DNA of 64,000 bases from Gimesia benthica. GTDB lineage: Bacteria > Planctomycetota > Planctomycetia > Planctomycetales > Planctomycetaceae. The stretch's first letter is position 1. The number at the start of each line of letters is the position of its first letter. This document shows, piece by piece, positions 11,201-32,402 of the stretch. The notes under the pieces were generated by a model, which saw only the letters and a list, made by a program, of their open reading frames with translations, ran no database searches and had not been told where the DNA came from. Made by a program: the position numbers and the translations under genes. Where the stretch lies: assembly GCF_009720525.1 (NCBI RefSeq), contig NZ_CP043930.1:1054001-1118000 (forward strand), given 5' to 3'.

Positions 11201-11344
11201 TTTTGCATCTTCAGCATTTTGAAGAAGCTCGTAAATAAAATGCGTTCTATCAGCGTACAAATTACCCAGAAATGACAAATGATGAGTTTTTTCACCATAG
11301 TCTTTTATGTTTTCACTACATATTTTCTCAAAATCAATTGTCAT
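8258..11344 (-). CDS. Sacsin/Hsp90-type GHKL ATPase with C-terminal zinc motif (1028 aa)
   Basis: The N-terminal ATP-binding fold of the sacsin/Hsp90 type shows an N-box-like YELLQNAEDA at 38-47 and the glycine box IGTFGIGFKSVYG at 93-105. The usual Asp-x-Gly motif reads SHNG (64-67), so nucleotide binding may be altered. The long middle part is unassigned. The C-terminus has CxxC pairs at ~920/923 and ~959/962, a treble-clef-like zinc site resembling a degenerate HNH. The ATG at 11344 overlaps the end of the upstream helicase gene by 11 bases, so the two are co-translated. Such ATPases often sit next to SNF2 helicases in defence islands; an anti-phage role is inferred. Confidence 0.8.
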   Translation of the reverse strand: MTIDFEKICSENIKDYGEKTHHLSFLGNLYADRTHFIYELLQNAEDAKASEINFHLKAHCLEVSHNGRLFNEEDVRGICGVGDGTKSEDLTQIGTFGIGFKSVYGYTLKPEIHCGDNHFCIEHYVRPHQIAVRKIPKPFSTLFVFPFDRENEELNQITSQEAFDEISDRLKSLGIRTLLFLKNLEQISFIIEGGSSGSYLRENEEHETHSRVKVIGQKNEEEVDEQWLIFSKSLPDPYHDLKTEIAFHLKTKEGKKNSHEIVPIQSSLLTVFFPTDQETHLGFLVQGPFKTTPARDNIPKQNEWNKNLVLVIRDLLSETLHVVKDLGLLSVSFLECLPIRDVLLHDEWLVGPLYEATKNAFEVSELLPTDDGSFTRSCNAKISRTKDLRSLINTHQLTEMLLSKEKIKWITGHITRDKNQELYDYFEDHLSIEEITPEKFAGKLSEVFLAQQSDEWFIQLYEFLSGQNALWRAAGNYKEGLLRRKPFIKCQDDMIRPPFEVEKDTHDEVPVVFLPVKTEVDVPLVKWRIYHNQKAKEFLERDLRLNKPDICAEVMQNVLGKFESHSEEEFKSLKENYQDYVDQISEAFNLVISPQNSELRRRLMSTPWILSRNAKTGDEKFLKANAVYLASAELEQYFRDNGEAWFVCEDYQHERTILTELGVKHSPGWMHRQSLFYCNKYQSAKIDLVVERGSHRRGLKCFDPDAEVFGLEHALKNITPGLSVYIWNEIACKYSKFIRGQIETATRQDFSNAETEDLVSKFGKLLDSTKWIKTKTEWKVPSECRIDELPREFKVEDKIVDALGIKPSDSEEKQNRIIELQEVLGVNQNDASFIMELINEPSRLSELQLVLKKPSTKPPFPERSSKNPERRSGKVKEQQERAGSRSYETRERSVRVSQPLEDSKEYLRDLYTNDDDKMICQMCENEMPFRLLNGKYYFEAVQVNDNYPEEVYQLNLALCPVCAAKYKYILKKDDAALEKFVSSLDGIESPSFIFDFSIENGVNHSIRFVELHLEDVRTILNNHLEESV

Positions 11345-14300
11345 TATGCTCCGCTTCCACTCTCAAAATACCAAATACAATCGCACGAGCATGAATATCA
11401 GAACTACTTTCGGCTCCTTCAATATGGGCTTTCTGTCGTTCATAATCTCTGATAGCATTCGCGACTTGTGCCTGTTTCATCCTTCGAATTTTATCATTCG
11501 TTGATCTTTCTAACTGTTCGTGGAGTACATTCATCCTGCCTCGATGACTTGTATCCAGACTCTCTCGTCGAAAGGCACATATTTTGTGTTCTTTTTGCAG
11601 ATGAGTTTCCTTGGCACTCTGCCACATTGCATGATGAGTCTTGTTTAGACTTTCGAATTGTTCTTCATGGAACAGATTAGAATCAGGTGATGGTAATGAT
11701 GATCCACATTCCAGATAATCAAAGAAATTATCGCTCAATTCCTGATTATCAAATACAGGAACTAATCTAAGGTCTTCTCTGATTCCCTTATATTCCCAAG
11801 CATAGATGGAAAAGGGATAATCCCCACTTGGCACTTCATCAGTATAGATTTTAAAAGCCGTGTAAACAGGTTCGACAGCTTCAAGATAATTAGCCGCCTG
11901 TTTAACAAAGGGGTGTAGCGGGTAGATGAAGTGTGAATCACGTCTGTCAGAAGCACATGTAGAATCAAACGTCATAGCACAATGCTGGTCTGAGCCTTTA
12001 AGCCATTGCTCCCAAGATCGATAAACTGGATTTTTTTGCTGCTTATGGGAAGGGAGATTACGAAAATCTTCTAAAATAATTTGACGTGCTTCTTGTGACA
12101 GACGAAGTGTTTTCAGAAGTTTATCCCCCAAAATGTACTCACCTTCTCCACATCTCTTCGCAATATATCGCTCGATAAGAAATTGTATGGAATTAGGGGT
12201 CAGCCAATAATTTTCAGCCTGTTGGATATCATCATTGGTCTGGGATTGGGGCAAGCGGACTCCAAACAGCTCGTGTTCACGATCCTCCAATTCAGTCTGC
12301 TCCTGAATTTTCCTGACTTTGTTATCAGAAAGCTGATCCAGTTTTTCTGCTTTCTCTTCCTCTGTCAGATCAAAAGACTCAGCGATGGAGTGAATTTCCT
12401 GGGTAATTTCACCAAGTATCTCTTCACAATCTCCCAGACTTTCCTGAAAAACTCCAATACGTGAAAGGCATCGATCATAGATAGTAGCATCAACGGTCCC
12501 AGGCGTGATTAAGTTATTGATCACGACAACTTCGTTTTTCTGACCACGCCTGTCGATACGTCCAATACGCTGCTCAATTCGCATAGGGTTCCAAGGGAGA
12601 TCGTAATTGATCATGGCATCACAAAACTGATAGTCGAGCCCTTCACAACCAACTTCAGAAAACAACATCACATCAAGAGCTTCTTCGTCCTCTTTCGGTT
12701 TTTCAAACTTTCCACGCAACAACCTGCGTTCTTCGTCTACAACATCACCATGAACTAGCCCTACCCTGTAACCTAATTCATCTAACTTGTTTTTCAGATA
12801 TGAAAGCGTATGTCGAAAACTACTAAAAACCATCATTTTGTTATTGGGAAGTTTATTCTTTTCTTCAATTATTTCGCAGAATGCCTCTAGTTTTGGATCC
12901 CTGGGAGGAAGTGTTCTTGCCATCGCAGTAATTACTTCCGCCCTTTCCTTGAGAGATTGCAGAAATCTGTCCGGAATGTCTTCGACGATTTCTTCATCGG
13001 TCGTCTCTAACCATGCCAGGTGAGAAAGCCTCCTTGCGAGAATATCATTTATGAAAGGTGCCAGTCCAAAGATACAACTGGCAGCTTGCCGACGAATCGT
13101 AGTCATCATGAAGTTGACGTTTTGATCTCCATGAATCATGGTCAACGTTTCAGCTTCGAATTCCAAAAGCAGATCATGAAGAGCAGCTTGCTCCTCAGTG
13201 AATGGACATTCCACAGTTTCAGGTTTACGAATACAGAAGTCTTCAATATCCCTCCTTCTTGTTCTGTTAATCAGCCGAGAGAAACTATGAAAGCTCTCAA
13301 TTTTCCGGGCAATTGCCAGACGTTCTTCCTGGTCCAACTGATTGTCAGTCAGGTCCTTGCACGTCGATTGAAAATCTGGATTTGAAACGAGAAGTGAACG
13401 CCCCCAATCTGTTCTTGCAGCACTCATCAGTGCTCGCTCAGCCCTTTCCTGCCAATCATCTTTACCTGATCGAACTTGCCTTAGAGCTTCATTTACATGT
13501 GGATTAGGCTCTGCCATGTGTGCAAAGGTCTCTTCGTCAATGACAAGGTCTGGACGAAGTGTATTCAAAAGTGTGAATAAGTCTTGATTCCCAAGTTGGA
13601 CAGGTGTGGCTGTCATGAATACAACGGCTTCTGCATTTTCACAGAAGTAGCGTACTGCTTGATGTCTCTCGGTTGACGCATTTCTAATATGGTGAGCTTC
13701 ATCAACAATCACTAAGTCAAAATGCGGAGGGGGATCGAGGTCAAGAAGACCTACCCTTTGTCGTCTTCCTTCATGAACCCCATGCAGCAGTCTTCTATCT
13801 AGCAGAGAATATGGAATGATTGCTTTTGAGAATTGATCTGGCCACTCCGCCTCGAGTTCAGCATCTGTAACACACTTTTGAAGTAATTTACCATCCAAAT
13901 GAATAAAACGCTCATCGAAGCGTTTCATTTCAAGTTCCCACTTTCTTTCAGCAACCAGTGGTTTTGGACAGATAATTAGCACTGATTCAATATCCGTTCG
14001 TGCCTGCAATTCTCTTAAGATCAATCCTGCTTCGATTGTTTTACCAACACCTACACTATCAGCAATTAAAATTCGTGGCTGATCAGACCGGAGTAGCTTC
14101 AATGCAGGTCGGAATTGATAAGGAACAAAATCAATCCTCGCGGCATTTAAAGAATAGAGGGTAGAAAGTGAGGGATGCTTGACATGAAAAGATGTAAGAA
14201 GCGTATGTAGTTCTTTAATTGATACATTTTTTCGCTCATTCTGCTCGATTACTGGCAGTACTTGAGACGCATAAAAAAGGCGTCTCTGGTTTTCCATAAA

Positions 14301-14939
14301 AACTGCATACTGAGTTGAATCTCCCGTCCCCAGGATTTCTATGACAGCTCCTTGCCGGCTTGGATCACTCTTCAAAGAAATCATATTTCCAAGTTTTATC
14401 TCTCCAGATACTGGAGAGTTTTGCTGTTCTGGTTTCGGTACTGCTGAAGAGAGTTCTTTGGGCTCTTCTTCTTTTTGGGGGGAGTTTATTGATATGATCG
14501 AGGCCTTGAGTTCTTTGGCCTTAACTACTAATTCTTGATCTGCTTTTAATATTCCAAGAAATCGCTGGAGAGTATCTACGTCACGATACACGTCATCTTG
14601 TGGGATTCCTTCTGCCTCTACATGTGCCCATCGGTTTCTAACAGTCTGCATTTCCTTTGCGATATTTCTGTCAGTGGCAGTGAATTGTAACTTCTGGGAA
14701 ATGAGGTACCAATTTTTATCGAGCAGTCTTAAAAGTGCTGCTAAATCCAAATTTTGTAATCGAGTCACTCCATCATTCTCAACGCGTAGTCTTTGTTGAT
14801 GAGAAAGATTATTGAGAACCAGCTGATCCCACCAGTCCTCTCTTTGCGTTGAAAGTTTATCTAGTAACCAGTCGGAAAGAACATGCCCCGTAGAAAGCAG
14901 CAGTACTGTCATCTGTCCCGCAGTTGAATTAAAAGACAT
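11334..14939 (-). CDS. SNF2-family helicase with N-terminal Swt1-type HEPN domain (1201 aa)
   Basis: The N-terminal ~140 residues match the Swt1/HEPN type and carry RNRWAH at 101-106, an R-x4-H arrangement like HEPN ribonuclease sites. A RapA/DrmD-type SNF2 motor follows: Walker A IADSVGVGKT (292-301), DEAHH, the MTATP motif and the C-terminal RIGRIDRRGQ arginine-finger region. It probably translocates on duplex DNA. It is the first gene of a two-gene operon with the GHKL ATPase. A perfect 23-bp tandem repeat lies 30 bases upstream of its start, on the side facing the divergent RtcR-like gene. Confidence 0.88.
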   Translation of the reverse strand: MSFNSTAGQMTVLLLSTGHVLSDWLLDKLSTQREDWWDQLVLNNLSHQQRLRVENDGVTRLQNLDLAALLRLLDKNWYLISQKLQFTATDRNIAKEMQTVRNRWAHVEAEGIPQDDVYRDVDTLQRFLGILKADQELVVKAKELKASIISINSPQKEEEPKELSSAVPKPEQQNSPVSGEIKLGNMISLKSDPSRQGAVIEILGTGDSTQYAVFMENQRRLFYASQVLPVIEQNERKNVSIKELHTLLTSFHVKHPSLSTLYSLNAARIDFVPYQFRPALKLLRSDQPRILIADSVGVGKTIEAGLILRELQARTDIESVLIICPKPLVAERKWELEMKRFDERFIHLDGKLLQKCVTDAELEAEWPDQFSKAIIPYSLLDRRLLHGVHEGRRQRVGLLDLDPPPHFDLVIVDEAHHIRNASTERHQAVRYFCENAEAVVFMTATPVQLGNQDLFTLLNTLRPDLVIDEETFAHMAEPNPHVNEALRQVRSGKDDWQERAERALMSAARTDWGRSLLVSNPDFQSTCKDLTDNQLDQEERLAIARKIESFHSFSRLINRTRRRDIEDFCIRKPETVECPFTEEQAALHDLLLEFEAETLTMIHGDQNVNFMMTTIRRQAASCIFGLAPFINDILARRLSHLAWLETTDEEIVEDIPDRFLQSLKERAEVITAMARTLPPRDPKLEAFCEIIEEKNKLPNNKMMVFSSFRHTLSYLKNKLDELGYRVGLVHGDVVDEERRLLRGKFEKPKEDEEALDVMLFSEVGCEGLDYQFCDAMINYDLPWNPMRIEQRIGRIDRRGQKNEVVVINNLITPGTVDATIYDRCLSRIGVFQESLGDCEEILGEITQEIHSIAESFDLTEEEKAEKLDQLSDNKVRKIQEQTELEDREHELFGVRLPQSQTNDDIQQAENYWLTPNSIQFLIERYIAKRCGEGEYILGDKLLKTLRLSQEARQIILEDFRNLPSHKQQKNPVYRSWEQWLKGSDQHCAMTFDSTCASDRRDSHFIYPLHPFVKQAANYLEAVEPVYTAFKIYTDEVPSGDYPFSIYAWEYKGIREDLRLVPVFDNQELSDNFFDYLECGSSLPSPDSNLFHEEQFESLNKTHHAMWQSAKETHLQKEHKICAFRRESLDTSHRGRMNVLHEQLERSTNDKIRRMKQAQVANAIRDYERQKAHIEGAESSSDIHARAIVFGILRVEAEHNDN

Positions 14940-15428
14940 CGTTTGATTGTTCTCCCATTCAGATCCTTGTGACCTAAATCAAAAATGGTGGGTGACCTAA
15001 ATCAAAAATGGTGGCTCAACGAACGCTGTGAATCGGCCAACCATCAATTGTGATTCTGTCCATGAGGTACATTGGCTGAAAATTGATACGTTTAGAATCA
15101 ACTCATACTTCTAATTCTCCCCACGGTAAACAAGAGCACACTCAACATCAATGAACAGTTATGTAAATGTCTAATTGGTTCTGGGTAATAAAGTACTGTC
15201 CACTTCTCTCCAAACACATTATTCAAGCCTTTGCGGTTTTCATCATTTACTTCCGGATAATATTGCACTTCTGGTGCCAGAAACTAATCAAGAGCTTTGA
15301 TATTTGAAAAACCAGCTAGATATGTTGCTTTTAACGAGCATTTACGCTCCGAAAGCATACCACTCAATTGCCGTACACGTTGCTCAGCTGTACAATCTGA
15401 TTTGTGATTACACAATTGGAATGGTGAT
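14940..15428. other. Divergent regulatory region
   Basis: The intergenic space between the helicase operon (leftward) and the RtcR-like regulator (rightward). Apart from the 23-bp tandem repeat at 14969-15014 I find no gene, no hairpin and no sigma-54-type promoter. Confidence 0.5.
14969..15014. repeat. Perfect 23-bp tandem repeat upstream of the helicase gene
   Basis: Two identical adjacent units, each beginning GTGACCTAAATC and ending ATGGTGG (14969-14991, 14992-15014). The position 30 bases upstream of the helicase ATG suits operator sites or a recent duplication. Confidence 0.8.
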
Positions 15429-17051
15429 ATGACAGCAAAGAAACGCATTCTTGTTCAATGGATCGGCCATAGTGACTTTCGGGCATTGGCTGGAAGTTTA
15501 CCTGCGAACAGAGCAAAGAAAATCTTAGATCGCCTCAAAGGTTCTCCCTCTGAAGAGGAAAATCTGGGACCAACCAAGACCCTGCTCTCCACTCAGAAGT
15601 TTGATGAAGTACGCCTTCTCAGTAACTATGACAAAGAGTGGAATAAGTGGTTTCAGAGCTGGTTGAATACCCCCACTGATCTGATTCAGGTAGATCTGGA
15701 AAAACCGACCGATTATCGGGGGATCTTCGAGATTGTCGACCGGGAATTGTCCACATTAAAGGAGTCAAAAAGCTGGTCCAATTCTGAATTGTGTCTCCAC
15801 TTAAGCCCTGGCACACCGGCCATGTCTGCCGTTCTGTTGTTGCTGGGGAAAACGCGTTACCCTGCTACTTTTTACGAAACATCCAGGGATGGGAAGTCAT
15901 GGATCACAGATATCCCTTTTGATCTGATCGACATTATCCCTGAGATTTTGCGAAAACCTGACGCCTATTTACAGCATCTATCAACACGGGCACCGGCTGA
16001 AATCAAAGGGTTCGAAGACCTTGCTGGCGATAGCCGTGCGATCCGAGATGCGGTGGGGAGAGCTCAACGTGCTGCCATTCGAAGCGTTTCCATCCTGTTG
16101 ATCGGAGAGAGCGGTACTGGTAAAGAAATGTTTGCCCAGGCCATTCATAAAGCCAGTCAACGCCATGACAAGCCCTTAAAAACAGTTAACTCTGCTGCCC
16201 TCTCTAAAAGTCTGCTTGAATCAGAACTCTTTGGTCATCGAAAGGGGGCATTTACCGGAGCTGATAGTGACCGGGAAGGCCTTTTTGAAGCTGCTGATGG
16301 CGGGACCCTCTTCCTGGACGAAATCGGTGAGTGCGATTTGGAAACCCAGGCAAAACTACTTCGCGTATTGCAGCCAGTGACTGGAGAAGGCCCCTCAGTT
16401 CGATATATCTGTCGTCTGGGAGAGAATAAAGATCGAAAGGTTGACGTTAGAATCATTGCGGCAACCAACAAAGATCTGTTTGCAGCAATACAGTCGGGAG
16501 AATTCCGGGAAGACCTTTATTACAGGCTGGCGAACCTGTTGATCAATCTTCCCCCACTCCGAGACCGAAAGTCTGATATACCAAAAATCGCGAATCATTT
16601 ACTGGGAATGCTGAATCAGCAGTTCGAAGCAGAAGAACCGGGCTACATTCACAAATCCCTTTCTGCTTCCGCAATTTCATTTGTGAAATCACAACCCTGG
16701 AAAGGGAATGTACGACAACTGTACAATGCTCTCATGCAGGCGGCGATCCTGACCGATGGCAGTGAAATCGGGAAGAAAGAAATTGACGCATCCATTGCCC
16801 AAACTCCTGATTCAGCCCGGACTCTGAACTCGGTAATGGATCGTCCTCTCGGGGATGATTTTAATCTGGAAGAACATCTGAATGACATACATCGTAAATA
16901 CTTAGCACGTGCGTTAGAGGATGCTCATGGGGTCAAAGCAGAGGCTGCAAGGTTGTTGGGAATTAAAAACTATCAGACACTTGACGCCCAGCTGAAACGT
17001 CTGGGAGTTCAGGATACCGGGGATAAGAAAAAGAGAACCAAACGAAAATAG
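15429..17051 (+). CDS. RtcR-like sigma-54 activator with CARF-like sensor (540 aa)
   Basis: Three parts. The N-terminal ~190 residues form a Rossmann-like sensor with [16 protein letters not shown] near residue 125, resembling the CARF domain of RtcR. The AAA+ domain has Walker A GESGTGKE near 224 and the sigma-54 contact loop GAFTGA near 273, then FLDEIGE. The C-terminus is a Fis-type helix-turn-helix ending in [17 protein letters not shown] domains bind nucleotide or cyclic-oligonucleotide ligands, so the protein should switch on sigma-54 promoters on sensing a signal. A consensus -24/-12 element starts 10 bases past its stop codon, directly before hsdR. GGA lies shortly before the ATG. Confidence 0.85.
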
Positions 17052-17052
17052 A

Positions 17053-17089
17053 CCAGAAGATTGGCACACCTGTTGCTTTACTCTTCTGG
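17053..17089 (+). promoter_or_regulatory. Sigma-54 promoter of hsdR, framed by a perfect inverted repeat
   Basis: TTGGCAC at 17061-17067, five bases, then TTGCTTT at 17073-17079. GG and GC have the exact -24/-12 spacing. The element is bracketed by CCAGAAGA (17053-17060) and TCTTCTGG (17082-17089), perfect 8-bp inverted arms that could bind a regulator. Transcription should start near 17086-17090, so the upstream in-frame TTG at 17061 cannot be the hsdR start. Confidence 0.8.
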
Positions 17090-17114
17090 CATGTTTACAG
17101 AATCCGAATTCAAT

Positions 17115-20100
17115 ATGAAATCAATCAACTTTGAGTTTCTCAGACCAAAGTGGCCAGAACTGGCAGGCTTGGGGGGATTTGCAGAAGCTTACGCACATCC
17201 GGATCCCGTCGGTGCTATTTCCAAGCTCCGAGTCTTCTGTGAACAAATTGTCGAATGGATTCATGATAACCAGCGACTCCCCAAACCCTTCAAGGCAAAT
17301 CTCAACGACCTTCTCCACAACCAGCCTTTTAAAGACGTCGTTCCTGAAGTCATTCTTGCTAAACTTCATGCACTTCGTATGGAAGGGAATAATGCGGCCC
17401 ATGGAAACAAGGGAGATACGACAACCGCTCTCCGGTTAATCAACGAGTCCTACAATATTTCTCGTTGGTTGCACGTTAATTATGCCAGCGGCAATGTCGC
17501 AGATTGTCCTGACTATGTAGAACCACCAGAGGGAGGTGTCGAAGGATACCAAAAGCGTAAAGAGAAGAGAGCGATCCTGGAACGCATTACTGCCCAGGAA
17601 GCTCAAATGCAAAAACTGCTAGCTGATCTGGAAAAAGAACGTTCTGACCGAGAAAAAGAACGCTCAAGAGCAGATCAGGCAGAAGCGACAGCCCAAGAAC
17701 GTCAGGCCGCTTTGGAAGCAGCTCTGCAGGCAACCCAGCAACTGCAGACCATTGATCCTATGGCATTCAATGAGGAAGAGACGCGAAATTATCTAATCGA
17801 CCAGATGCTCACGGATGAAGGCTGGGATGTGGGTAAAGGGTTCACTGACACTGAAGAAGTCAAGAAAGAAGATCTCTTAACAGGCCAACCTACAGAATCA
17901 GGCCAAGGGAAAGCTGACTATGTATTATTTGATGATAATGGTAAACCATTAGCGGTTATTGAAGCCAAACGGACTAGTAAGGATGCCAGCTTAGGCCGTA
18001 AACAGGCAGTCCTCTACGCCGATGGAGTAGAGGAAAAGTATGGCCAGCGTCCCGTCATTTTCTATACCAACGGTTATGATCTCTGGATCTGGAACGACGC
18101 AGCTGATGAGCCACCACGCAAGATTTATGGTTTCTATTCCAAGGACAGCCTGCAACATCTACACTTCCAACGAACAGCAAAACTTCCTGTCAGTGAAGTC
18201 TCTGCCAATCCGGAAATCGCAGGACGAATGTATCAGATTGAAGCCGTCCGGCGTGTGGTTGAAAAGTTTGCCGAAAAAAAACGAAAGGCTTTAATAGTTC
18301 AAGCCACGGGGACAGGAAAAACCCGAGTTTCGATTTCACTCTGTGACGCAATGGTCAAAGCAAACTGGGCCAAACGAATTCTGTTCCTGTGCGACCGTCG
18401 CGAACTCCGACGCCAGGCGAACAATGCCTTCAATGAATTCCTGCCATCCTTACCACGCACGTTTGTTACAGGGAAATCTGCCGGAAATACTGTCGATCGT
18501 ATTTTTCTATCAACCTATCCCGCCATGATAAAGGTCTATGAATCATTTGATGTCGGATTCTTTGACCTGATAATTGCCGACGAATCTCACCGCAGCCTCT
18601 ATAACCGTTATCGGGAGCTGTTTGAGTATTTTGATTGTTATCAAGTCGGTTTAACCGCAACTCCCATTGCATATCTAAAGTCTGATCGAAATACGTTCAA
18701 AATGTTTCAGTGCGAGATTGGAGATCCGACAGCTCATTACACATTCGAAGAGGCAATCAACCATAATCCTCCCTACCTGGTACCGTTTGAAGTAGATAAT
18801 CATACCACCGAGTTCTTAAGAGAAGGAATCAAGTACTCGGAAATGTCAGATGAGCAGAAGGCTCAACTTCTTGATGACATTGATCTCCCCGAAGGTGTTG
18901 ACTTTGATCCCAGTCAGGTAAACAAGCTGGTCTTCAACAAGGATACAAACCGTCGGATTCTTCGCAATCTGATGGATAACGGAATCCGGGTCGGCAGTCG
19001 GATCGGCAAAACGATTGTTTTTGCCTGCAACATGAGGCATGCCCGATTACTGGAAGAACTGTTTAATGAGATGTACCCGCAGTACGGTGGAAAGTTCTGT
19101 CAGACGATTGTCAGCGATGATCCCAGGGCTGAATCTCTCATTGATGACTTTAAAGGTAATGGGACTAATCCGGATCTGACAGTAGCTATTTCAGTGGACA
19201 TGCTGGATACCGGTATTGATGTCCCAGAATGTGTCAATTTAGTTTTCGCAAAGCCGGTTGGGTCTCCCGTGAAATTCTGGCAGATGATTGGGCGAGGAAC
19301 TCGGCTATGCAAAGACCTGTTTGGACATGGAAAGGATAAAACCCACTTTCAGATTTTCGATCACTGTGGAAACTTTGAAAAATGGGAACAGGATTACAAG
19401 CCTGCTGATCCTTCACGAGATAAATCACTTAGCGAACATGTCTTTACTGCTCGTATTGAGCTGGCAGAGCTGGCTCTGGAACAACAGAATGTGTCTGCTT
19501 TTGAGATCGCCACAAGCCTTATCCATCAACAGATTGCCGATCTGCCCAGAAATAGCATCGCGATCAAGGAAAAATGGAAGCTGGTCCAATCCGTCTCTTC
19601 AGAAGAGACAGTAAAACAGTTTGATGCAGCCACGAAAGCGACATTACAACAGGACATTGCCCCTTTGATGCAGTGGGTCGACATCAACAAGTATGAAGAA
19701 GCTTATAAATTCGACCGTCTGATTGCCCAGCTCCAGTCTGAACTCATTCGGGGCGGAGGGAAATTTGCTGATTATCAGGCTACAGTAAAAAACCTGGTAA
19801 GCAGCTTGCGAATCAATCTGTCCCAGGTAAAAGCTAAACTTTCAGTTATTGAACGGGTCAAGAGTGACGAGTTCTGGGTTGAAGTCACCATCGAGGATTT
19901 GGAAGAGGTCCGTAAGCAATTGCGAGGAATCATTCAATTCCGTCGTAAAGATGATCCCAGCCGTTTTGAACCAGTTGTCCTAGATGTCACGGAAGACGAA
20001 TCACAGATCCAGCAAAACAAACATAAGGTTCGCCTGGATAAACTTGATGACCTGGACATGGTTGCCTATCGCAACCGGGTGAATCAAGTTCTGCAGACGA

Positions 20101-20531
20101 TCATTGATCAGAATGAAACTCTGCGAAAAATACGTCTCGGACAACCGGTCACTGAAAAAGATCTCGAAGACCTCTGCTCTCTTGTACTGACTCAGGAACC
20201 AGGACTCGATCTACACGACTTGATGGAATATTTCAAGCAGGCCAAATCACTCGATCAGGCCATCCGCGGAATCATCGGCATGGATGCGGAAGCGGTTCAT
20301 CAACGTTTTACAAAGTTCGTACAGGCCCATCCCAATCTGGCTTCACACCAGATCAAGTTTTTGGATCTGCTGCAAAACCACATAGCAAAATACGGTTCCA
20401 TTAAAACTGACGAACTGTTTCAACCACCATTCACTTCCCTGCACTCAGATGGCCTGGACGGCCTGTTTGAGGGAACACTGGCTGATGAGTTGTTTGACAT
20501 TATCGACTCATTTCAGGAACAGAAAGAATAA
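17115..20531 (+). CDS. hsdR: Type I restriction enzyme R subunit, EcoEI-like (1138 aa)
   Basis: This is the motor and nuclease subunit of a type I restriction system: it translocates DNA and cuts unmethylated DNA. A DUF4145-like domain comes first, ending in EGNNAAHG. A coiled coil follows (~160-215), then a PD-(D/E)xK nuclease with DYVLFDD and VIEAKR, an SF2 helicase with Walker A QATGTGKT near 397 and DESH, and an EcoEI-type C-terminal domain. The frame is open from TTG 17061, inside the sigma-54 promoter. The ATG at 17115 fits a ~25-base leader, while ATG 17091 would be almost leaderless. Genes hsdM and hsdS follow, and the regulator precedes it. Confidence 0.9.
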   Translation: MKSINFEFLRPKWPELAGLGGFAEAYAHPDPVGAISKLRVFCEQIVEWIHDNQRLPKPFKANLNDLLHNQPFKDVVPEVILAKLHALRMEGNNAAHGNKGDTTTALRLINESYNISRWLHVNYASGNVADCPDYVEPPEGGVEGYQKRKEKRAILERITAQEAQMQKLLADLEKERSDREKERSRADQAEATAQERQAALEAALQATQQLQTIDPMAFNEEETRNYLIDQMLTDEGWDVGKGFTDTEEVKKEDLLTGQPTESGQGKADYVLFDDNGKPLAVIEAKRTSKDASLGRKQAVLYADGVEEKYGQRPVIFYTNGYDLWIWNDAADEPPRKIYGFYSKDSLQHLHFQRTAKLPVSEVSANPEIAGRMYQIEAVRRVVEKFAEKKRKALIVQATGTGKTRVSISLCDAMVKANWAKRILFLCDRRELRRQANNAFNEFLPSLPRTFVTGKSAGNTVDRIFLSTYPAMIKVYESFDVGFFDLIIADESHRSLYNRYRELFEYFDCYQVGLTATPIAYLKSDRNTFKMFQCEIGDPTAHYTFEEAINHNPPYLVPFEVDNHTTEFLREGIKYSEMSDEQKAQLLDDIDLPEGVDFDPSQVNKLVFNKDTNRRILRNLMDNGIRVGSRIGKTIVFACNMRHARLLEELFNEMYPQYGGKFCQTIVSDDPRAESLIDDFKGNGTNPDLTVAISVDMLDTGIDVPECVNLVFAKPVGSPVKFWQMIGRGTRLCKDLFGHGKDKTHFQIFDHCGNFEKWEQDYKPADPSRDKSLSEHVFTARIELAELALEQQNVSAFEIATSLIHQQIADLPRNSIAIKEKWKLVQSVSSEETVKQFDAATKATLQQDIAPLMQWVDINKYEEAYKFDRLIAQLQSELIRGGGKFADYQATVKNLVSSLRINLSQVKAKLSVIERVKSDEFWVEVTIEDLEEVRKQLRGIIQFRRKDDPSRFEPVVLDVTEDESQIQQNKHKVRLDKLDDLDMVAYRNRVNQVLQTIIDQNETLRKIRLGQPVTEKDLEDLCSLVLTQEPGLDLHDLMEYFKQAKSLDQAIRGIIGMDAEAVHQRFTKFVQAHPNLASHQIKFLDLLQNHIAKYGSIKTDELFQPPFTSLHSDGLDGLFEGTLADELFDIIDSFQEQKE

Positions 20532-20593
20532 AACCGTTACCGCTGGTAGTTACCGACTGAAAGACCAGGCTTAATAATAAAACAGGAATTATG

Positions 20594-20620
20594 CTGCACG
20601 GTTTGAACAAGGTCGTGCAG
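20594..20620. other. Hairpin between hsdR and hsdM
   Basis: CTGCACG and CGTGCAG, perfect 7-bp arms with a 13-base loop and no T-run. A processing or regulatory hairpin in the polycistronic RNA is possible. Confidence 0.4.
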
Positions 20621-20649
20621 ATTCAAGAACAAGGATTTTAGGAATATCA

Positions 20650-22248
20650 ATGATTACAGGACAGTTACGCAGCAAAATCGACAAGCTCTGGGAAGAATTC
20701 TGGACAGGCGGTATTACCAACCCGCTGACCGTAATTGAACAGATTTCCTTCCTGATGTTTGCCCGTTTGCTCGACATGCGAGAAAGCACCGAAGAAAAAA
20801 AATGGTCCCGCAAGCATAAAAACAAACCGTTTCCCGGCGTGTATTTCTCCCCCGATCAGCAGCACCTCCGCTGGAGTCAGCTCCGTCAGGAAGCCGATGG
20901 AGAGAAAATCCTGAAGATCGTGCGGGATGAAGTCTTCCCTCATTTTCGTCATCTTGGACAGCAGGCAGACCAGGCAGGGGCAACCGTCCCCCAGAACACC
21001 TTCAATCAGTATATGAAGGATGCCACGCTGATGATCAACAAGCCGACTCTGCTGGTTTCGGCAATCACCATGATTGATGCCCTTCCGCTGAATCAGGGGG
21101 ACACCAAGGGGGACCTCTATGAATACCTGCTCAGCAAGCTGACCACAGCTGGCATCAACGGTCAGTTCCGTACCCCCCGGCATATTATCCGCACCATGGT
21201 CGACCTGGTGCTGGAAGGGAACCATGAGGAAGCCATTTCCTGGACCGTGGGGGACCCGGCCTGTGGAACGGGGGGCTTTCTGGTGGAATTCATGCAGGCA
21301 CTTCGCGAGCATTTTACCTCTCCGCAAGGCATTCATGTTGACGAAGAGACAGGAGAAAAGACTTATACCGGCGACCTGATTGAACCGGCCCAGTGGAAGC
21401 ACATCAAAAGCGAGATGTATCACGGGTTTGATTTCGACGTTACCATGCTGCGGATTGCGGCCATGAACCTGATGCTGCATGAAATCGACACGCCAGACAT
21501 CAACTACCAGGATACCCTCAGCACGAACTTCACCGATCGGAAGGAAACGCAGCAGTGGGCCGAAGACGCCTTTGACCTGATTTTGGCCAATCCTCCGTTC
21601 AAGGGGTCGCTGGATGAAGAAGATGTCCACAAAACACTGACTGGGAAGGTTAAGACTAAAAAGACCGAACTGCTGTTTCTGGTTCTGATGCTGCGAATGC
21701 TCAAGCTGGGAGGCCGCTGTGCAGTGATTGTGCCGGACGGTGTGACTTTCGGATCTTCCAAGGCTCACAAAATGCTGCGTCAGATGCTGGTAGAAGAGAA
21801 CCAGCTGGAGGCAATCATCAAACTCCCCTCCGGGGTCTTTAAGCCATACGCCGGTGTGAGTACGGCGATCCTGCTGTTTACCAAAGGGGGTCAGACAGAC
21901 AACGTCTTCTTCTTCGATGTCCAGGCCGATGGCCGGACGCTGGACGACAAGCGGGACAAGATCGGAGCCGCCGACGACTGGCAGGACCTGGATGTCCTCC
22001 GGAAAATCTGGCCGAAATGGAACGGGGGAGCGGGTAAGAAGCATTTCCAGGACCGCACAGCTCAAGCCTTTTGTGTGCCGAAAAAAGAGCTTAAGGAAAA
22101 CGCCTATGATCTTTCGATTAACCGGTACAAGGAAATTGTGCATGAAGAAGAGGAGTATGATCCACCGAAAGTGATTCTGACTCGTCTGAAAAAACTGGAA
22201 GCAGAAATCGCCTCCGATCTTGAAGAACTGGAGGCAATGCTGGGATGA
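20650..22248 (+). CDS. hsdM: Type I modification methylase M subunit (532 aa)
   Basis: An N6-adenine methyltransferase: it methylates host target sites and forms the core of the restriction complex. The helical HsdM N-domain is followed by motif I DPACGTGG (~202) and motif IV NPPF (~313), both intact. AGGA lies seven bases before ATG 20650. The stop codon overlaps the hsdS start (ATGA), so the two are translationally coupled. The gene is visibly richer in G and C than hsdR and leaves a 492-codon antisense open frame, which suggests a different recombination history from its neighbours. Confidence 0.93.
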
Positions 22249-23429
22249 CCTTACTGACGAAAACAGAGATGCGGCCTTTGGGCGACGTCTGCGAAGTTTT
22301 CGCTGGCTATGCCTGGAAATCGAAGCAATTCAATACCTGCGGACGCGGACTTCCGGTTATCCGGATTCAAAATGTTGGAACAAGCGATCATTCTGATCTT
22401 GTCTATTGGGAGCACGATTACAATTCGCGTTTCCTGATCAATGAAGGCGACTTGCTTCTGTCTCTGTCAGGGAGCTTTCGAATTGCCAAGTGGGATGGTC
22501 CGCTGGCATTGCTAAATCAACGCGTTGTAAAGCTCACCCCAAATGAAGAGTTGAATGAGCGGTGGTTATACTACGCAATAAGCCGCCAACTCGATCACAT
22601 TGAACGGATGGGGAAACATGCCCTAGTAAACAATGTGTCAATTGCCGATCTTCGGAGACTTGAGATCCCTCTCCCGCCGCTGTCGGAGCAGAAGCGGATC
22701 GCCGACATCCTCGACAAAGCCGACGCCATCCGCCGCAAACGGCAGGAAGCAACCGTAAAATATGGAACGTTGGGGGCTTCGGCGTTTCTTGAATTTTTCG
22801 GAGACCCATTGACGAATCCGCAGGGTTGGAAACTCGAAACACTTGATATAGTCGCCAGTCAAGGGAGTCGCGGTCTAAAACGCGGTCCTTTCGGTGGAGC
22901 ACTCAAGAAAGAGATCTTCGTCGATCAAGGATTCAAAGTGTATGAACAAAAGCATGCGATTGCCGACGACTTCACCATCGGTAGTTACTATATCGACGAA
23001 GATAAATATGAGGAAATGAAAGCGTTTTCGGTTCTTCCTAACGATCTGATCGTGAGTTGCTCAGGTACGATGGGGCGAGTAGCTATTGTTCCTGAAACAG
23101 CTGAACCGGGAATCATCAATCAAGCACTACTGAGAATTACTCCCGACACGTCAAAAGTATCATCACTCTATTTGAAAATGCTGCTTGAAACGACGCCTGT
23201 CCAACGGCATTTGTACGGTTTCTCACGCGGATCTGGGCTGAAGAACTTTCCCCCTATGTCTGAGGTTCGGTCGCTGCCAGTTCCCATCCCTTCCTCGGAG
23301 AGACTTTCAGACTTCCACAAATATATGGTCAAAGTAGATACAGCTGGTAAAAAGCTTGCCGAAGTGGAGAAGGACACGGAGAAGCTTTTTAACTCTCTCG
23401 TTCAACGTGCATTTAAAGGGCAATTGTAG
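22245..23429 (+). CDS. hsdS: Type I specificity subunit (394 aa)
   Basis: Two target-recognition domains separated by the conserved helix [19 protein letters not shown] (~141-159), with a second conserved helical region at the C-terminus. The first half opens with [15 protein letters not shown] and the second with [12 protein letters not shown]. This subunit reads the bipartite DNA target for HsdM and HsdR. Length is normal and the start overlaps the hsdM stop by four bases. Confidence 0.92.
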
Positions 23430-23485: not shown

Positions 23486-24439
23486 ATGAGTGCCCCCGAG
23501 AAGTACATTCTGCTCGATGCCAATTTGCTGGCGGGATATTATGCTCCTCAGACGTTTAATAAGTATTCAAAGCCTGCAGAAGATAAAATTACCAATTTGA
23601 TCGACGCCGTTCGGACTGGATGTGCTCCTCATGCTCGATTACTGACTCCTGAGATCTGTGTCTCCGAAGCCCAGACAGTCCTTTCCAAACATGCCAATAG
23701 CAAGTGGAAGGGAACTATGCCGAAGAGCGGGGATACGGAGGCGATCCATGGTAAGAGCTACAAGACGATCGTCAAAAAAATGCGGGAGGATCTTCATGGT
23801 GGAAACGTGATTGAGTCGATTCCGCTGGCACGGTATCACGTCCTGGCAAAACACCTGATTACACCTATTGATCACAATTTACATCTGAAACAACGCGTTG
23901 GAAATAAGCCGGTTAAAGAGATGGGTGGGACAGACCAGCTGATCTGTGGAATGGCGATCTGGCTGACACGTTTTCTCGGTCATGAACGACTTCATGTCTT
24001 CACTGCCGATTATCGGATGTACAAAGTCCTGGAGAAGGCACGAAAAATTACTCCCCGGCAGATGGAAACCTGGGGGATCATTGAAATGGCAGAGAAGAAT
24101 ATCGGTTTCTCATGGAGTGCTGATTATTTTCCACAGTATGTTTATCTGCCTCAAGCATCTGATAAGCAGCTTCGGGATATATTCGGCTCCTGGCCACTCC
24201 CTACCACAAAAAAGAAAACTCTCAAACATCCAAAGGCGGTTAAGGAAGCCGATGTGGAAACTCTGCTTGCTCTTTATAAAGCAATTGGAGTTGGACGGGA
24301 CCGCCTCCCCTATTCCCCCAAAATTGAAATACTCACCAGGCAGTTTAATGATTCGACTGGTCACTCTCTTTCTGAAGCAGAGATATGGTCTTATCTTATC
24401 TCGCGGTTGAAAAAGGGTGGTGGAAAACTCAATAGATAG
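23486..24439 (+). CDS. PIN-domain-like protein linked to the type I system (317 aa)
   Basis: The N-terminal LLDANLLAGYY, the acidic TPEICVSEAQ near 55, GGTDQLICGMAIWL near 150 and VFTADYRM near 170 give the spaced Asp/Glu set of PIN-fold ribonucleases. The C-terminal ~90 residues are basic and unassigned. It lies 56 bases after hsdS on the same strand, probably in the same sigma-54-driven unit. It would be an RNA- or DNA-cleaving accessory of the restriction operon; substrate unknown. Confidence 0.6.
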   Translation: MSAPEKYILLDANLLAGYYAPQTFNKYSKPAEDKITNLIDAVRTGCAPHARLLTPEICVSEAQTVLSKHANSKWKGTMPKSGDTEAIHGKSYKTIVKKMREDLHGGNVIESIPLARYHVLAKHLITPIDHNLHLKQRVGNKPVKEMGGTDQLICGMAIWLTRFLGHERLHVFTADYRMYKVLEKARKITPRQMETWGIIEMAEKNIGFSWSADYFPQYVYLPQASDKQLRDIFGSWPLPTTKKKTLKHPKAVKEADVETLLALYKAIGVGRDRLPYSPKIEILTRQFNDSTGHSLSEAEIWSYLISRLKKGGGKLNR

Positions 24440-25660: not shown

Positions 25661-27862
25661 ATGAAAGATCGAAAACAATCAGGGCATTTTCACTACCCGA
25701 CGCGGCTCGCCCAGATGATCGCTGATATTGCGAGACTCTATCAACCTAGCACTGCAATTGATCCAAATTGCGATGATCTAACAGTCTTGAATCACTGCGA
25801 TTTTCTAGCTGCAAAACGAGCAATCTTCCGAAATCCAAACTCATTGGATCAAGCGGAAGCGACCGGCACTGACATTGATCTGGGGATAGGAGATTTTTGG
25901 AGAGAACCTTTGGATGAACTCTTCGACCTCGTTATAACAACGACACTCCCTTTCGGAGCTCGAATTGAAATTGGTGGACGAATAAAAAAGCTCGACGAGA
26001 TAATTGCAAACAGATGTCTGGACATTGTCGCCCCGAACGGAATTTGTATTTTGATCGTACCAAGTCACTATCTCTACTTATCAGTATATAATTCTCTTCG
26101 CGAGCGAATTCTTGACTACATGTCTCTAGATGCATCGATCGAAATTACTCCCAGTACTCTCAGAGACTCTTTAGAAATCAGCATTCCACTAACTCTTCTA
26201 GTAATCAGAAATGGCCCTCAAAAGTCACAAGGAACTTTCTTAGCCAAGTATGAGTCAGGTAGCGAGTCAGAAATCGTATCATCAATTGAAAGCGGGACAG
26301 GGGATTTCTTTGTTCAATCAGACAAATTGAGAGATCGATGGGATAGAAGTTTTCACGATCCTGCCTATCAGAAATTAGAAAATAAACTGAAAGGTTTTGA
26401 GACGAAGGCCCTGAGAGACATTGCACAAATCCGACGAGGCAAGCCTACGACTCGCGATCAATACTCGGATTTTGGGGAGATTCTCATCGTCTCACCTCGT
26501 CACGTCCACTCCGGTGATCTGACAGTTACCGATCGAGACAGATGTGTTTCTAACGTCGATGATTCCGAACTTCTTCAGCCTGGCGATGTACTTGTTAGCC
26601 TCTCTCGACCATCGGTATGTGTTTATCAGCCAGATTCCCCTCCAGCCATAGCTGGCATGCAAGTCGCTGTTATAAGGAGCCTTCAAGGAAACTACATCGC
26701 AACTTTCCTCCGAAGTGAGATGGGATCATCAATTTTTCAACAACAGATGGATCGTCATTCTAAGGGTACCACGATTGAATCTATCTCTCCGTCAGATTTG
26801 ATTAAAATACAAATTCCAATTCTTCCTCTCGAAGATTTGAATTCTATTAGCGATGAGGCGATTTCGGAGGCAGACTCCTCCGAACTAGAAGCTTTAAAAA
26901 CTGAGCTTCTTAGAGTTCGTCACATGCTAGAAACGTCTGAAGCAAGAAGAGAATCAGCAGAATCGCAACTCGAAGAAGAAAAGACCACCAATAGGGAAAA
27001 TAATGCTCACCATCAACTGGTCGAATCTCAGTTGGGCAAGATTCTTGAACAGCAAACTGTACTGAACTCTCAGATCGATCAGGTTTTAAAGATACTTACA
27101 GGAATGCGTGAGCAGATTGATTCAATCAAGCAGGGATCAAGAAAAGATGAAGAAAAACTTTCGTTGATCTGTACTCAACTTGAAGAGTGGACAAAACAAT
27201 CGGTTTCACAGAAAAGAAATTTCGCAGGGTATGTGAGGATCGTTCAGAGTTGGCTAGATGAGTGGGACATACTCGATCAATTGACACAGCAATTTTTACC
27301 ATCTGCCGAACACCTCTACGATGAGCTGGAAAGATTAAAAGCTTCGGATTTCTCGCCGTTTATAGTGCAGTACTGTAGATCACTTGAGAATGAAATATTG
27401 ACGAAGCTGTTCGTGACTTACCACGAAGACTTCAATAAACGCATCTCGAACAAAGAGTGCTTTCTGAAATCCGACTTAATCGATTTGGAATCGGGGGATT
27501 TACATCCAAAAACTGGAAAATTCGCGAAGGCTTTGAAGAACGATCAGCAAAAGTACACACTAGGTGACATGAAATGGGTCATGGGCCTAATGAAATCAGG
27601 TGGAAAAACTTTGGCGTCCAGTCCATTGCTTCAGGATTTCAAGGCATTCTCCTTAAAATATTTTGATGAAAGGATCACGCAGAAGGATTTCTTAAAGATG
27701 CTTACAGAGATCACTGATGATTATCGCAACAAGTCTGCTCATCCTTACCTCATGGGTAAATCAGAAGCCGATAAGTGTCTTCAACTCGTAAGACGTTCTC
27801 TCACTGATTTTCTCGAATCTTATCAAAGTGATAGCAATCCCCTTTCGGACAAAGACAAATGA
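25661..27862 (+). CDS. Defective N6-methylase / TRD / coiled coil / HEPN-like fusion (733 aa)
   Basis: Residues ~1-210 have the layout of an N6-adenine methyltransferase, but motif I reads AIDPNCDDLTVL instead of DPACGSG, and the NPPF position reads TTTLPFG, so methylation is unlikely. Residues ~235-415 look like an HsdS target-recognition domain (QIRRGKP, LLQPGDVLVS, a C-terminal IQIPILPLE). A long coiled coil follows (~415-500). The C-terminal domain carries RNKSAH at ~689-694, an R-x4-H arrangement as in HEPN ribonucleases. It stands alone between the hsdM relic and the Cas4-like gene. I infer a DNA-sensing, possibly abortive, defence protein; a plain dead restriction subunit is the alternative. 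Confidence 0.65.
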   Translation: MKDRKQSGHFHYPTRLAQMIADIARLYQPSTAIDPNCDDLTVLNHCDFLAAKRAIFRNPNSLDQAEATGTDIDLGIGDFWREPLDELFDLVITTTLPFGARIEIGGRIKKLDEIIANRCLDIVAPNGICILIVPSHYLYLSVYNSLRERILDYMSLDASIEITPSTLRDSLEISIPLTLLVIRNGPQKSQGTFLAKYESGSESEIVSSIESGTGDFFVQSDKLRDRWDRSFHDPAYQKLENKLKGFETKALRDIAQIRRGKPTTRDQYSDFGEILIVSPRHVHSGDLTVTDRDRCVSNVDDSELLQPGDVLVSLSRPSVCVYQPDSPPAIAGMQVAVIRSLQGNYIATFLRSEMGSSIFQQQMDRHSKGTTIESISPSDLIKIQIPILPLEDLNSISDEAISEADSSELEALKTELLRVRHMLETSEARRESAESQLEEEKTTNRENNAHHQLVESQLGKILEQQTVLNSQIDQVLKILTGMREQIDSIKQGSRKDEEKLSLICTQLEEWTKQSVSQKRNFAGYVRIVQSWLDEWDILDQLTQQFLPSAEHLYDELERLKASDFSPFIVQYCRSLENEILTKLFVTYHEDFNKRISNKECFLKSDLIDLESGDLHPKTGKFAKALKNDQQKYTLGDMKWVMGLMKSGGKTLASSPLLQDFKAFSLKYFDERITQKDFLKMLTEITDDYRNKSAHPYLMGKSEADKCLQLVRRSLTDFLESYQSDSNPLSDKDK

Positions 27863-30031: not shown

Positions 30032-30049
30032 GATCTTCCACAACCCATC

Positions 30050-30068
30050 TTTAAATTCCGGATTTTAA
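30050..30068. repeat. TCCGGA palindrome, copy 4
   Basis: TTTAAATTCCGGATTTTAA, core at 30057-30062, 19 bases after the DUF2779 stop codon. Confidence 0.7.
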
Positions 30069-30118
30069 GATGCTGATTCAATCTGCCCCTTCCGACATCC
30101 GCTCGTCACATGCCCTTT

Positions 30119-30182
30119 ACTAATGGCATTCTGTCACATACTTTGTTACCCTTTGGGGGACAGACGTCACGACGTTCTCCCC
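30119..30182. repeat. 60-bp intergenic module, copy 2
   Basis: Partner of 6004-6066 (about 70% identity), placed about 70 bases after a TCCGGA palindrome as in the first copy. It precedes the decayed helix-turn-helix gene. Confidence 0.55.
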
Positions 30183-30200
30183 CTACCAAGCGGGTACGAG

Positions 30201-30395
30201 ATGAGCGAATATCTGAAAACGGAAGAGGCAGCAGAGTTCTTGGGCGTCAGTCAGAATACGCAGAGGAACTGGACCAAGCTGGGAAAGATTCCCGTTCAGT
30301 TTAATACACTGAACAATTAACGTCTGTTTCGGCGGAAGGACCTTCAAGCCTTCCTCGATTTGGTCGCCAGGCCGGTGATGCGGAAACCGAGATAA
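30201..30395 (+). pseudogene. MerR/excisionase-type helix-turn-helix gene with nonsense codon
   Basis: From ATG 30201 the frame reads YLKTEEAAEFLGVSQNTQRN, a MerR/excisionase-like helix-turn-helix, to ...NTLNN and then TAA at 30318-30320. The same frame then continues RLFRRKDLQAFLD to a second TAA at 30393. Relatives usually have NNYRLF at this point, so the TAA looks like a Tyr codon changed by one base. Such small proteins often precede type I restriction genes, and here it stands before a dead hsdM. Confidence 0.75.
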
Positions 30396-30420
30396 CAACC
30401 AACAGAAGAACAGACGCAGG

Positions 30421-30460
30421 AAGTGACTTACTTATGAGCCAAGTGACTTACTTATGAGCC
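30421..30460. repeat. Perfect 20-bp tandem duplication over a start codon
   Basis: Two adjacent copies of a unit AAGTGACTTA-CTTATGAGCC. Each contains an ATG. The first opens a 7-codon frame that ends in the second copy; the second ATG (30454) opens the HsdM fragment. Confidence 0.85.
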
Positions 30461-30804
30461 AACAGAATCTTTCTTCATTTATCTGGTCCGTCGCGGTCAT
30501 TCTTCGAGGTGATCATAAGCAATCTAAGTACGGTCGTGCAATCCTACCGTTTACGGTGCTCAGGCGTCTGGACTGCGTACTGAAGCCGACGAAAGAAGCA
30601 GTACTCTCCGAAAAAAAGAAACGCGAATCAGCTGGAATCAACTCGCCGGTTCTGACCAAAGAGATCATGAACACGATGGACTTTCAGTCCGAACTGAGTA
30701 CCCGGGCATTTAATTCAGCTGAGATCCGCGAAAGCCTTAAGTCTTCCATGCTGAACCAGCTCGGTTTGTGCGAAAAACTCAAATCCCGAGCTGCAGGAGC
30801 GTGA
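30454..30804 (+). pseudogene. HsdM N-terminal fragment B
   Basis: FIWSVAVILRGDHKQSKYG and LPFTVLRRLDCVL match the N-terminus of HsdM proteins of the subfamily also seen in fragment A. Everything from about residue 65 on, including both methylase motifs, is missing, and the frame ends after an unrelated short tail at 30804. Four bases later the HNH gene starts. It is a relic, unless the 116-aa product kept a role as a partner or decoy. Confidence 0.75.
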
Positions 30805-30807
30805 TGA

Positions 30808-31545: not shown

Positions 31546-31662
31546 CGCCTTGGCTGAACGCCCACTGGTAACGCGTCTCGATGTGTTCGTTCTTCGAGGC
31601 CGCAAAAATGAAAACCAATGAACAAGACTGAGAAAACTGTGAGCTGAATGAGAGAATGAGCA

Positions 31663-32289: not shown

Positions 32290-32317
32290 CGACAATTATG
32301 GGAATTTGAGTTTTCGT

Positions 32318-32335
32318 GTTACGCCTCTCCGATAG
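32318..32335 (+). promoter_or_regulatory. GTTACGC-N4-GCGATAG element, site 5 (kinase gene)
   Basis: GTTACGC, CTCT, CCGATAG: one mismatch. Its end lies 68 bases before the kinase ATG at 32403. Confidence 0.7.
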
Positions 32336-32402
32336 TCATAAATAGGAGATCCTTGTGGCCCAAAATAACAGATAGCAATAGAACAGATGCGGTGAACTAG
32401 AG

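Follow-up and report, generated by a model that had tools for sequence, protein, structure and literature searches.

An RtcR-like activator gene with putative operator arrays, a candidate coding enhancer and a sigma-54 element in front of a type I restriction operon of Gimesia benthica

The stretch of DNA analyzed here (the window, 64,000 nucleotides) comprises bases 1054001-1118000 of the Gimesia benthica genome, which is 8.03 Mb long and assembled as a single contig. It contains a gene for an RtcR-like transcriptional activator, followed head to tail by the type I restriction-modification (R-M) genes hsdR, hsdM and hsdS. We consider it probable that the gene for the activator forms a regulatory cassette complete in itself, in which an operator array (O1) lies in front of the coding sequence, a second array (O2) inside it acts as enhancer, and a sigma-54 promoter at the stop codon drives hsdRMS. 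The anatomy of this locus is directly visible, its parts and their places are conserved among relatives, the genes behind the activator are exchanged between them, and the sensor domain of the activator is predicted to adopt a CARF-like fold. From this arrangement we infer that the activator binds O1 and O2, responds to a ligand, represses its own gene, and by looping induces the three hsd genes jointly.

A sigma-54 element and two operator arrays

The sequence-only reading of the window had placed a consensus -24/-12 element right behind the activator gene and hsdR behind this element. Both statements hold, and the gap to the activator stop codon is counted as 9 nucleotides (nt). The element carries GG at 17063-17064 (-24) and GC at 17075-17076 (-12) with 10 bp between them in a consensus context, and it predicts a start of hsdR transcription at about position 17088, within the range of 17086-17090 that had been expected. 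The motif alone is weak evidence, because the sequence TGGCACN5TTGCW, found once without mismatch in the 64 kb, reaches only chance level when one mismatch is allowed (2 matches in the window; chance mean 2.36). The strong evidence for the element is its recurrent place behind this activator family.

This place was determined in relatives of the CARF domain, for which 84,980 species genomes were scanned; 350 stretches were confirmed and the best 80 were kept. The close relatives were mostly labeled as Planctomycetota. A tally with matches in 392/392 genomes was discarded as meaningless, since the AAA+ domain matches every genome, and only matches of at least 441 bits were used. Together with the window, the relatives gave 81 loci, 64 of which were usable (the window and 63 relatives); the other 17 had an open reading frame (ORF) shorter than 480 amino acids (aa; 9 loci), no stop codon within the contig (7 loci) or less than 130 nt after the stop codon (1 locus). 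A fresh set of 20 loci consisted of 7 viral contigs, 7 plasmids and 6 genomes of another class. These genomes were 6 of 14 non-source matches, the 8 weakest (at most 42.4 bits) being left out, and the viral pairs L127/L129 and L131/L132 look like near-copies.

An element was counted when a site scored at least 13.5 of 15.5 in a stretch reaching from 25 nt upstream to 115 nt downstream of the point where the intergenic region begins. By this test it is present at the activator stop codon in 48/64 loci, and in several loci it begins right at this codon. In 40 runs with dinucleotide-shuffled versions of these stretches, the mean was 0.6 and the maximum 3 of 64. Other ORF ends of these loci gave 1/263, and sigma-54 activators of the non-CARF type 0/15, with less than 130 nt of sequence left in 2 of these. 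When a wide stretch from -60 to +400 was used, which was not fitted to the positions already seen, the element was found in 50/64 loci versus a shuffle mean of 1.2 and 5/263 other ORF ends. It also occurs in 15/20 fresh loci and in the majority of members in 16/23 clusters formed at 60% identity. Conservation in related genomes, which the sequence-only reading had named as a check on its claim, is thus observed. The possibility that the activator gene is itself preceded by a -24/-12 element was considered as well and rejected, because only 1/60 loci have one there. In the window the sigma-54 element is flanked by a perfect 8-bp inverted repeat (CCAGAAGA/TCTTCTGG at 17053-17060 and 17082-17089), which is not a general feature: a repeat of at least 8 bp is present in 1/56 element-bearing loci, namely the window itself.

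The operator arrays are defined by four half-sites with a 10-bp period (ACAA-N6-TTGT twice), which gives 16 scored positions. The repeated dyad was first noticed in the regions upstream of related activators. An expectation-maximization search of 72 upstream regions returned ACAAt-N5-TTGTg... with a score of 360, versus 74-80 for four letter-shuffled sets (60 restarts for the real set, 12 for the shuffled control). Run over both strands of the window, the resulting profile has its two best sites at 15392 (24.1 bits) and 16671 (21.8 bits), and by the array definition only O1 and O2 reach at least 12 of 16 positions in the 64 kb, the next best site scoring 11. O1 overlaps the -10 box (TACAAT) of a putative sigma-70-type promoter and ends 3 nt before the activator start codon. 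The scan of this region found 10 such promoter-like sites versus a shuffle mean of 11.9, i.e., they are no commoner than in shuffles; what backs the putative promoter is its position and the ACAAT-type sequence that many relatives have there. O2 lies about 400 nt before the activator stop codon and 411 nt from the TGGC of the sigma-54 element, with an additional ACAA nearby at 16691-16694.

Both arrays recur in a set of 73 loci, which comprises the 64 loci above plus 12 further regions minus 3 duplicates. Upstream of the activator, an array with at least 12 matching positions is present in 43/73 loci versus 19/1460 random windows. For the coding array, codons between -435 and -300 nt from the stop codon were exchanged for synonyms taken from the gene concerned, and six control windows in each gene were treated likewise. 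The real codons fit the array better at P<=0.05 in 50/73 loci and at P<=0.01 in 42/73, and the control windows of the same genes did so in 5/438 and 1/438 cases, respectively. A 24-bp profile derived from the upstream regions, and hence blind to the coding sequence, gave 52/73 and 42/73 loci at the same two thresholds, 24/438 and 4/438 control windows, and, over a wider stretch, 2/15 and 1/15 non-CARF activators. For O2 in the window, P is below 1/300 by the array definition and likewise by the independent 24-bp profile. O2 therefore consists of tandem dyad sites upstream of a sigma-54 promoter that, by these synonymous-codon tests, are selected beyond coding need, and we propose that it is an enhancer carried inside the activator gene. 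Element and coding array tend to occur together (both in 45 of the 73 loci, element only in 11, array only in 5, neither in 12; Fisher p 1.8e-4), and the coding array is present in the majority of members in 14/23 clusters at 60% identity. Moreover, O1 and O2 covary: a G is found in the coding array in 9/9 loci with ACAAG upstream versus 5/26 others (p 2.8e-5, uncorrected for descent).

Table 1. Features of the activator gene and the restriction operon in the window
Feature	Position	Strand	Details
Putative sigma-70-type promoter of the activator gene	15368..15396	+	TTGCCG-17-TACAAT; consensus scan, 9 of 12 matches
Operator array O1	15392..15425	+	ACAA-N6-TTGT-N6-ACAA-N6-TGGT; 15 of 16 positions; 34 bp
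RtcR-like CARF-AAA+-HTH sigma-54 activator	15429..17051	+	540 aa; Pfam, PADLOC, predicted fold
Activator domains			CARF, residues ~4-165; AAA+, 199-371; Fis-type HTH, 486-523
Operator array O2, proposed enhancer	16651..16684	+	ACAA-N6-TTCT-N6-GCAA-N6-TTGT; 14 of 16 positions; inside the activator coding sequence
Sigma-54 -24/-12 element	17061..17079	+	TTGGCAC-ACCTG-TTGCTTT (TTGGCACACCTGTTGCTTT); 9 nt past the activator stop codon
hsdR, type I restriction subunit	17115..20531	+	1138 aa from ATG 17115; PADLOC REase_I E 3.9e-276; start by homology
hsdM, type I methyltransferase	20650..22248	+	532 aa; N6_Mtase E 2e-56; PADLOC MTase_I E 1.1e-170
hsdS, specificity subunit	22245..23429	+	Methylase_S in two stretches, E 1.7e-26; 4-nt overlap with hsdM
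PIN-like protein, possible further operon member	23486..24439	+	Weak: PIN_12 E 6.8e-4, below Pfam cut-off

Sensor domain, restriction operon and exchange of cargo

The description of the activator as an RtcR-like protein with a CARF-like sensor, a GAFTGA-containing AAA+ domain and a Fis-type helix-turn-helix (HTH) domain is borne out by Pfam, PADLOC and the translation. Pfam matches were obtained for Sigma54_activat (E 7.9e-63) and the Fis-type HTH_8 (E 1.1e-5), and GAFTGA is present in the AAA+ sigma-54 interaction domain, which precedes the HTH. The PADLOC model RtcR_PspF2 CARF_AAA_HTH (PDLC01995) covers residues 5-527 with E 1.2e-155, a full-length family match; the name RtcR_PspF2 presumably comes from Makarova 2020. 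RpoN is encoded in the same genome (Sigma54_DBD E 4.5e-61).

For the sensor itself, Pfam returned a sub-threshold match to Csm6-CARF only (E 0.036), and a sequence-profile search of the PDB gave 7 matches with E 0.054-0.85, none of them a CARF protein. An AlphaFold2 model of residues 1-204, computed from 55 aligned sequences, has a mean predicted local distance difference test (pLDDT) score of 88.5. When this model was compared with the PDB by Foldseek, 45 chains matched at E<=0.001 (best E 8.7e-7), all of them CRISPR CARF or ring-nuclease proteins, including Csm6, ring nucleases, Card1, Cad1, Can2, Cam1 and Cami1. The template modeling (TM) scores, normalized by the query, are moderate (0.35-0.57 among the 50 matches listed), and a structure of RtcR is not among these 50 matches. 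The alignment of the sensor with the CARF fold, on which the sequence-only reading had made its claim depend, is thus found for the predicted model, and we regard the sensor as having a predicted CARF-like fold. The ligand of RtcR is RNA with a 2',3'-cyclic phosphate (PMC9879122), and such an RNA end is carried over here, by analogy, as the inferred ligand of the activator. The sensor has an H-x-x-x-G-T motif in common with E. coli RtcR, with no basic residue after the GT. Makarova et al. noted this as typical of RtcR, and took this to suggest a ligand unlike that of other CARF proteins (PMC4012209).

The three hsd genes behind the element were likewise confirmed by Pfam and PADLOC. HsdR contains the nuclease motif D-x16-E-A-K, a Walker A motif and DESH, and HsdM contains DPACGTG and NPPF. 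A start of hsdR at TTG 17061 was rejected, because this codon lies inside the sigma-54 element and homology to relatives begins with MKS... at ATG 17115, and the start was corrected to the latter, most likely position. The sequence-only reading had also raised the question of how hsdM is supplied before hsdR; hsdM is placed behind hsdR, after a gap of 118 nt in the window, and since it follows hsdR in this operon, the methylase would be behind the same gate. Among 22 measured hsdR-hsdM pairs, 10 show a 4-nt overlap, as does the relative G344. On the plus strand between the activator and hsdR, a scan found no terminator-like site, although Rho-dependent terminators escape such consensus scans; basal read-through is therefore possible. 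The PIN-like gene begins 56 nt after hsdS.

Among the 64 loci, 38 carry a type I R-M gene within the first two same-strand ORFs behind the activator, and 34 of these have the element. In 18 loci another gene comes first, and 10 of these contain the element. The activator in the window is 76% identical to that of G385, a genome of the same genus, where the cargo is Druantia III (DruH, DruE). It shares only 45% identity with the activator of G344; in that genome, HsdR is 79% and HsdM 86% identical to the window's own. Because these identities disagree, activator and cargo have different histories. On two plasmids, genes for VWA, kinase and phosphatase proteins are found as cargo behind the activator. 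Annotated type I genes also follow such activators on plasmids of Vitreoscilla, Pseudomonas luteola and Vibrio coralliilyticus; in Azotobacter the set is fragmented. The interpretation given by the sequence-only reading is partly supported, by the predicted CARF-like fold, the RpoN gene and the conserved element; it overlooked both operator arrays as well as the fact that cargo is exchanged.

Several observations concern the genes carried behind related activators. In G344 (L118, G344:C172, 2483-15118), a CARF activator and its element are followed co-directionally by type I R-M genes, Fic, HsdS, the patatin and cyclase of a cyclic-oligonucleotide-based antiphage signaling system (CBASS), an AAA_15-type ATPase and a 336-aa protein; possibly, R-M and CBASS are under one sigma-54 gate there. 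One pair of genes recurs behind hsd genes or directly behind the activator, for example at L079 17727-19385 and L080 19321-20244. It comprises an ATPase of the AAA_15/AAA_21 type (cluster of 26 ORFs) and a partner of about 310 aa (15 ORFs). The single partner scanned (307 aa) had no Pfam or PADLOC match. An assignment of this pair to McrBC was wrong, as the scanned ATPase is of the AAA_15/AAA_21 type and the 307-aa protein is unmatched. Seven contigs of a viral collection (L127-L133), viral by collection label only, encode relatives of the activator, and 4/7 have an element scoring at least 13.5 near the stop codon.

The surroundings of the operon in the window contain further defense-like genes. 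Two overlapping genes on the minus strand (8258-14939) are divergent from the activator. The product of one (8258-11344) has a Sacsin domain; the other (11334-14939) encodes a DrmD-like SNF2 helicase that includes a HEPN_Swt1 domain. It is a speculation that a HEPN ribonuclease next door might produce the RNA ends read by RtcR-type sensors. A GmrSD N-terminal domain protein (6126-7952, E 1.1e-31) is another restriction-type gene nearby. Downstream, a 733-aa protein (25661-27862) contains an HsdS-like target-recognition stretch (PADLOC Specificity_I E 2.1e-10, mad5 E 1e-12) and, by eye, a methylase-like N-terminus, and a 116-aa ORF (30454-30804) that comprises only the HsdM N-terminal domain (E 1.7e-14) seems to be left over from a further type I system.

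Proposed mechanism and alternatives

In the regulatory cassette that we propose, O1 would be an operator for the activator's own product over its own promoter, which would probably keep the activator level low. The CARF domain would bind a ligand, which in analogy to RtcR would be an RNA ending in a 2',3'-cyclic phosphate, and the protein would then assemble at O2. From this enhancer in the coding sequence, it would loop to the sigma-54 polymerase at its target promoter, the element at the activator stop codon, and turn on hsdR, hsdM and hsdS together. Since the activator gene carries all the control elements with it, any defense genes placed behind it would come under the same alarm. On balance, we favor the wider view that the gene is a portable alarm cartridge, behind which unrelated systems (type I R-M, Druantia III, ATPase modules, R-M plus CBASS) are exchanged on chromosomes and plasmids, to be inducible by one signal, with the coding enhancer kept across several phyla.

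Several results weigh against the cassette. A strong element near the stop codon was not found in 16/64 loci, and the coding array has P>0.05 in 23/73. Among the 20 fresh loci, only 5 reach P<=0.05 for the coding array (control windows 2/120) and only 2 have an upstream array of at least 12 positions; the array consensus is weaker or different there. The distance between O2 and the element is not helically phased (R 0.22 at 10.5 bp, 45 loci), and such phasing was therefore rejected as support. In addition, the stretch from -435 to -300 was chosen after the motif positions had been seen, and the p-values overstate independence because the sequences are related.

The alternatives differ in how much of this arrangement they question. 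That the -24/-12 sequence is a chance match and the type I system a constitutive one beside an unrelated activator would be the ordinary case, and it agrees with the chance-level one-mismatch matches in the window and with the several exact matches that a rough estimate predicts by chance for an 8.0-Mb genome; it is contradicted by the recurrence of the element at the same place in both the original and the fresh loci, and we hold it to be hardly credible. Unlikely, too, is a role of the coding array as a second repression operator, at which protein bound to O1 and O2 would loop or block activator transcription and so stop read-through into hsdR. The common motif of O1 and O2 and the location of O2 within a transcribed region would fit such a role, but the array co-occurs with the sigma-54 element, which is not required of a pure repression site. 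Sigma-54 activators, moreover, usually use enhancer sites upstream of the promoter. The model for RtcR has this arrangement, with enhancer sites upstream of its sigma-54 promoter (PMC9879122).

The two remaining alternatives concern the supply of methylase. Restriction and modification may always be expressed at a basal level by read-through from the activator promoter, with the sigma-54 element only boosting them, and this would explain how the host could already be methylated when HsdR is produced in a burst. We regard this as quite possible, if short of probable. It is in line with the lack of a terminator-like site before hsdR on the plus strand and with the position of hsdM behind hsdR, where the overlaps in other pairs and in G344 leave hsdM without an evident promoter of its own. 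Nothing speaks directly against it, but O1 over the -10 box would hold read-through low, and consensus scans overlook promoters as well as Rho-dependent terminators. Alternatively, restriction and modification subunits expressed together on an unmethylated chromosome would amount to a suicide device instead of a classical restriction barrier. All three hsd genes are behind the same gate, and relatives add abortive-type effectors in line, such as the Fic protein and the CBASS patatin and cyclase of G344, but basal read-through would protect the chromosome, and we consider a suicide device distinctly improbable. With respect to the supply of hsdM, we consider basal read-through likelier than an unmethylated chromosome and cell killing.

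If the cassette operates as proposed, restriction systems, which are usually regarded as always on, would in many cases be produced on demand and gated by a sensor of nucleotides or RNA damage, and the gate would be a separate module able to sit before other defense systems. Users of defense-gene annotations could then not assume that these systems are expressed under laboratory growth. The analysis also provides concrete promoter, operator and enhancer candidates for regulators of a class whose function had so far been a prediction.

Comparison with known systems

The activator in the window resembles RtcR of Escherichia coli and Salmonella in its CARF-AAA+-HTH build, its GAFTGA motif and its sigma-54 target. 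In an alignment with E. coli RtcR, identity is 26%; both contain an H-[LI]-[ST]-x-G-T motif and an R-Y-x-P-A region, and both lack a basic residue after the GT. In contrast to RtcR, which is divergent from its target rtcBA in the K-12 annotation, the activator is oriented head to tail with the restriction operon, and its proposed enhancer is inside its own gene. The genes rtcBA are not beside it; RtcB, the only one of the two searched for, was found once in the genome, at 2.14 Mb, about 1.1 Mb away. From the PADLOC family RtcR_PspF2, no difference at the protein level was found. The type I R-M system is likewise ordinary in that all three subunits have the usual domains and motifs, and it differs by its place behind a sigma-54 element and an activator that, by analogy, would be ligand-gated. 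The predicted sensor fold is shared with CARF effectors of type III CRISPR systems (Csm6, Card1, Cad1, Can2), but these act as nucleases or deaminases, whereas the activator would act on transcription.

A type I system under sigma-54 control is less unusual than the sequence-only reading had assumed. Already in 2014, RtcR-like CARF-AAA-HTH proteins were predicted to be associated with R-M systems, with the genes downstream under sigma-54 control (PMC4012209), and RtcR homologues before type I R-M genes within superoperons of coiled-coil nuclease tandems (CoCoNuT) were described in 2024 (PMC11090510). The same type of activator before restriction genes is found here, and the -24/-12 elements, the arrays and the coding enhancer are not in these accounts, as far as the available parts of both papers go. 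CoCoNuT (McrBC-type) genes were found behind the hsd genes neither by Pfam and PADLOC up to 27862 nor by Pfam in five genes at 28070-34700. A search that covered neither subscription papers nor the 2020 CARF classification found no published account of the elements, the arrays or a coding enhancer.

A study of the Desulfovibrio sigma-54 regulome from 2015 stated that coding conservation precludes the computational prediction of enhancers in coding regions (PMC4641369). Comparing real codons with synonymous reshuffles offers a way round coding conservation for finding such enhancers. Control of restriction systems by such activators had been predicted before, and the operator arrays and the candidate coding enhancer are new here.

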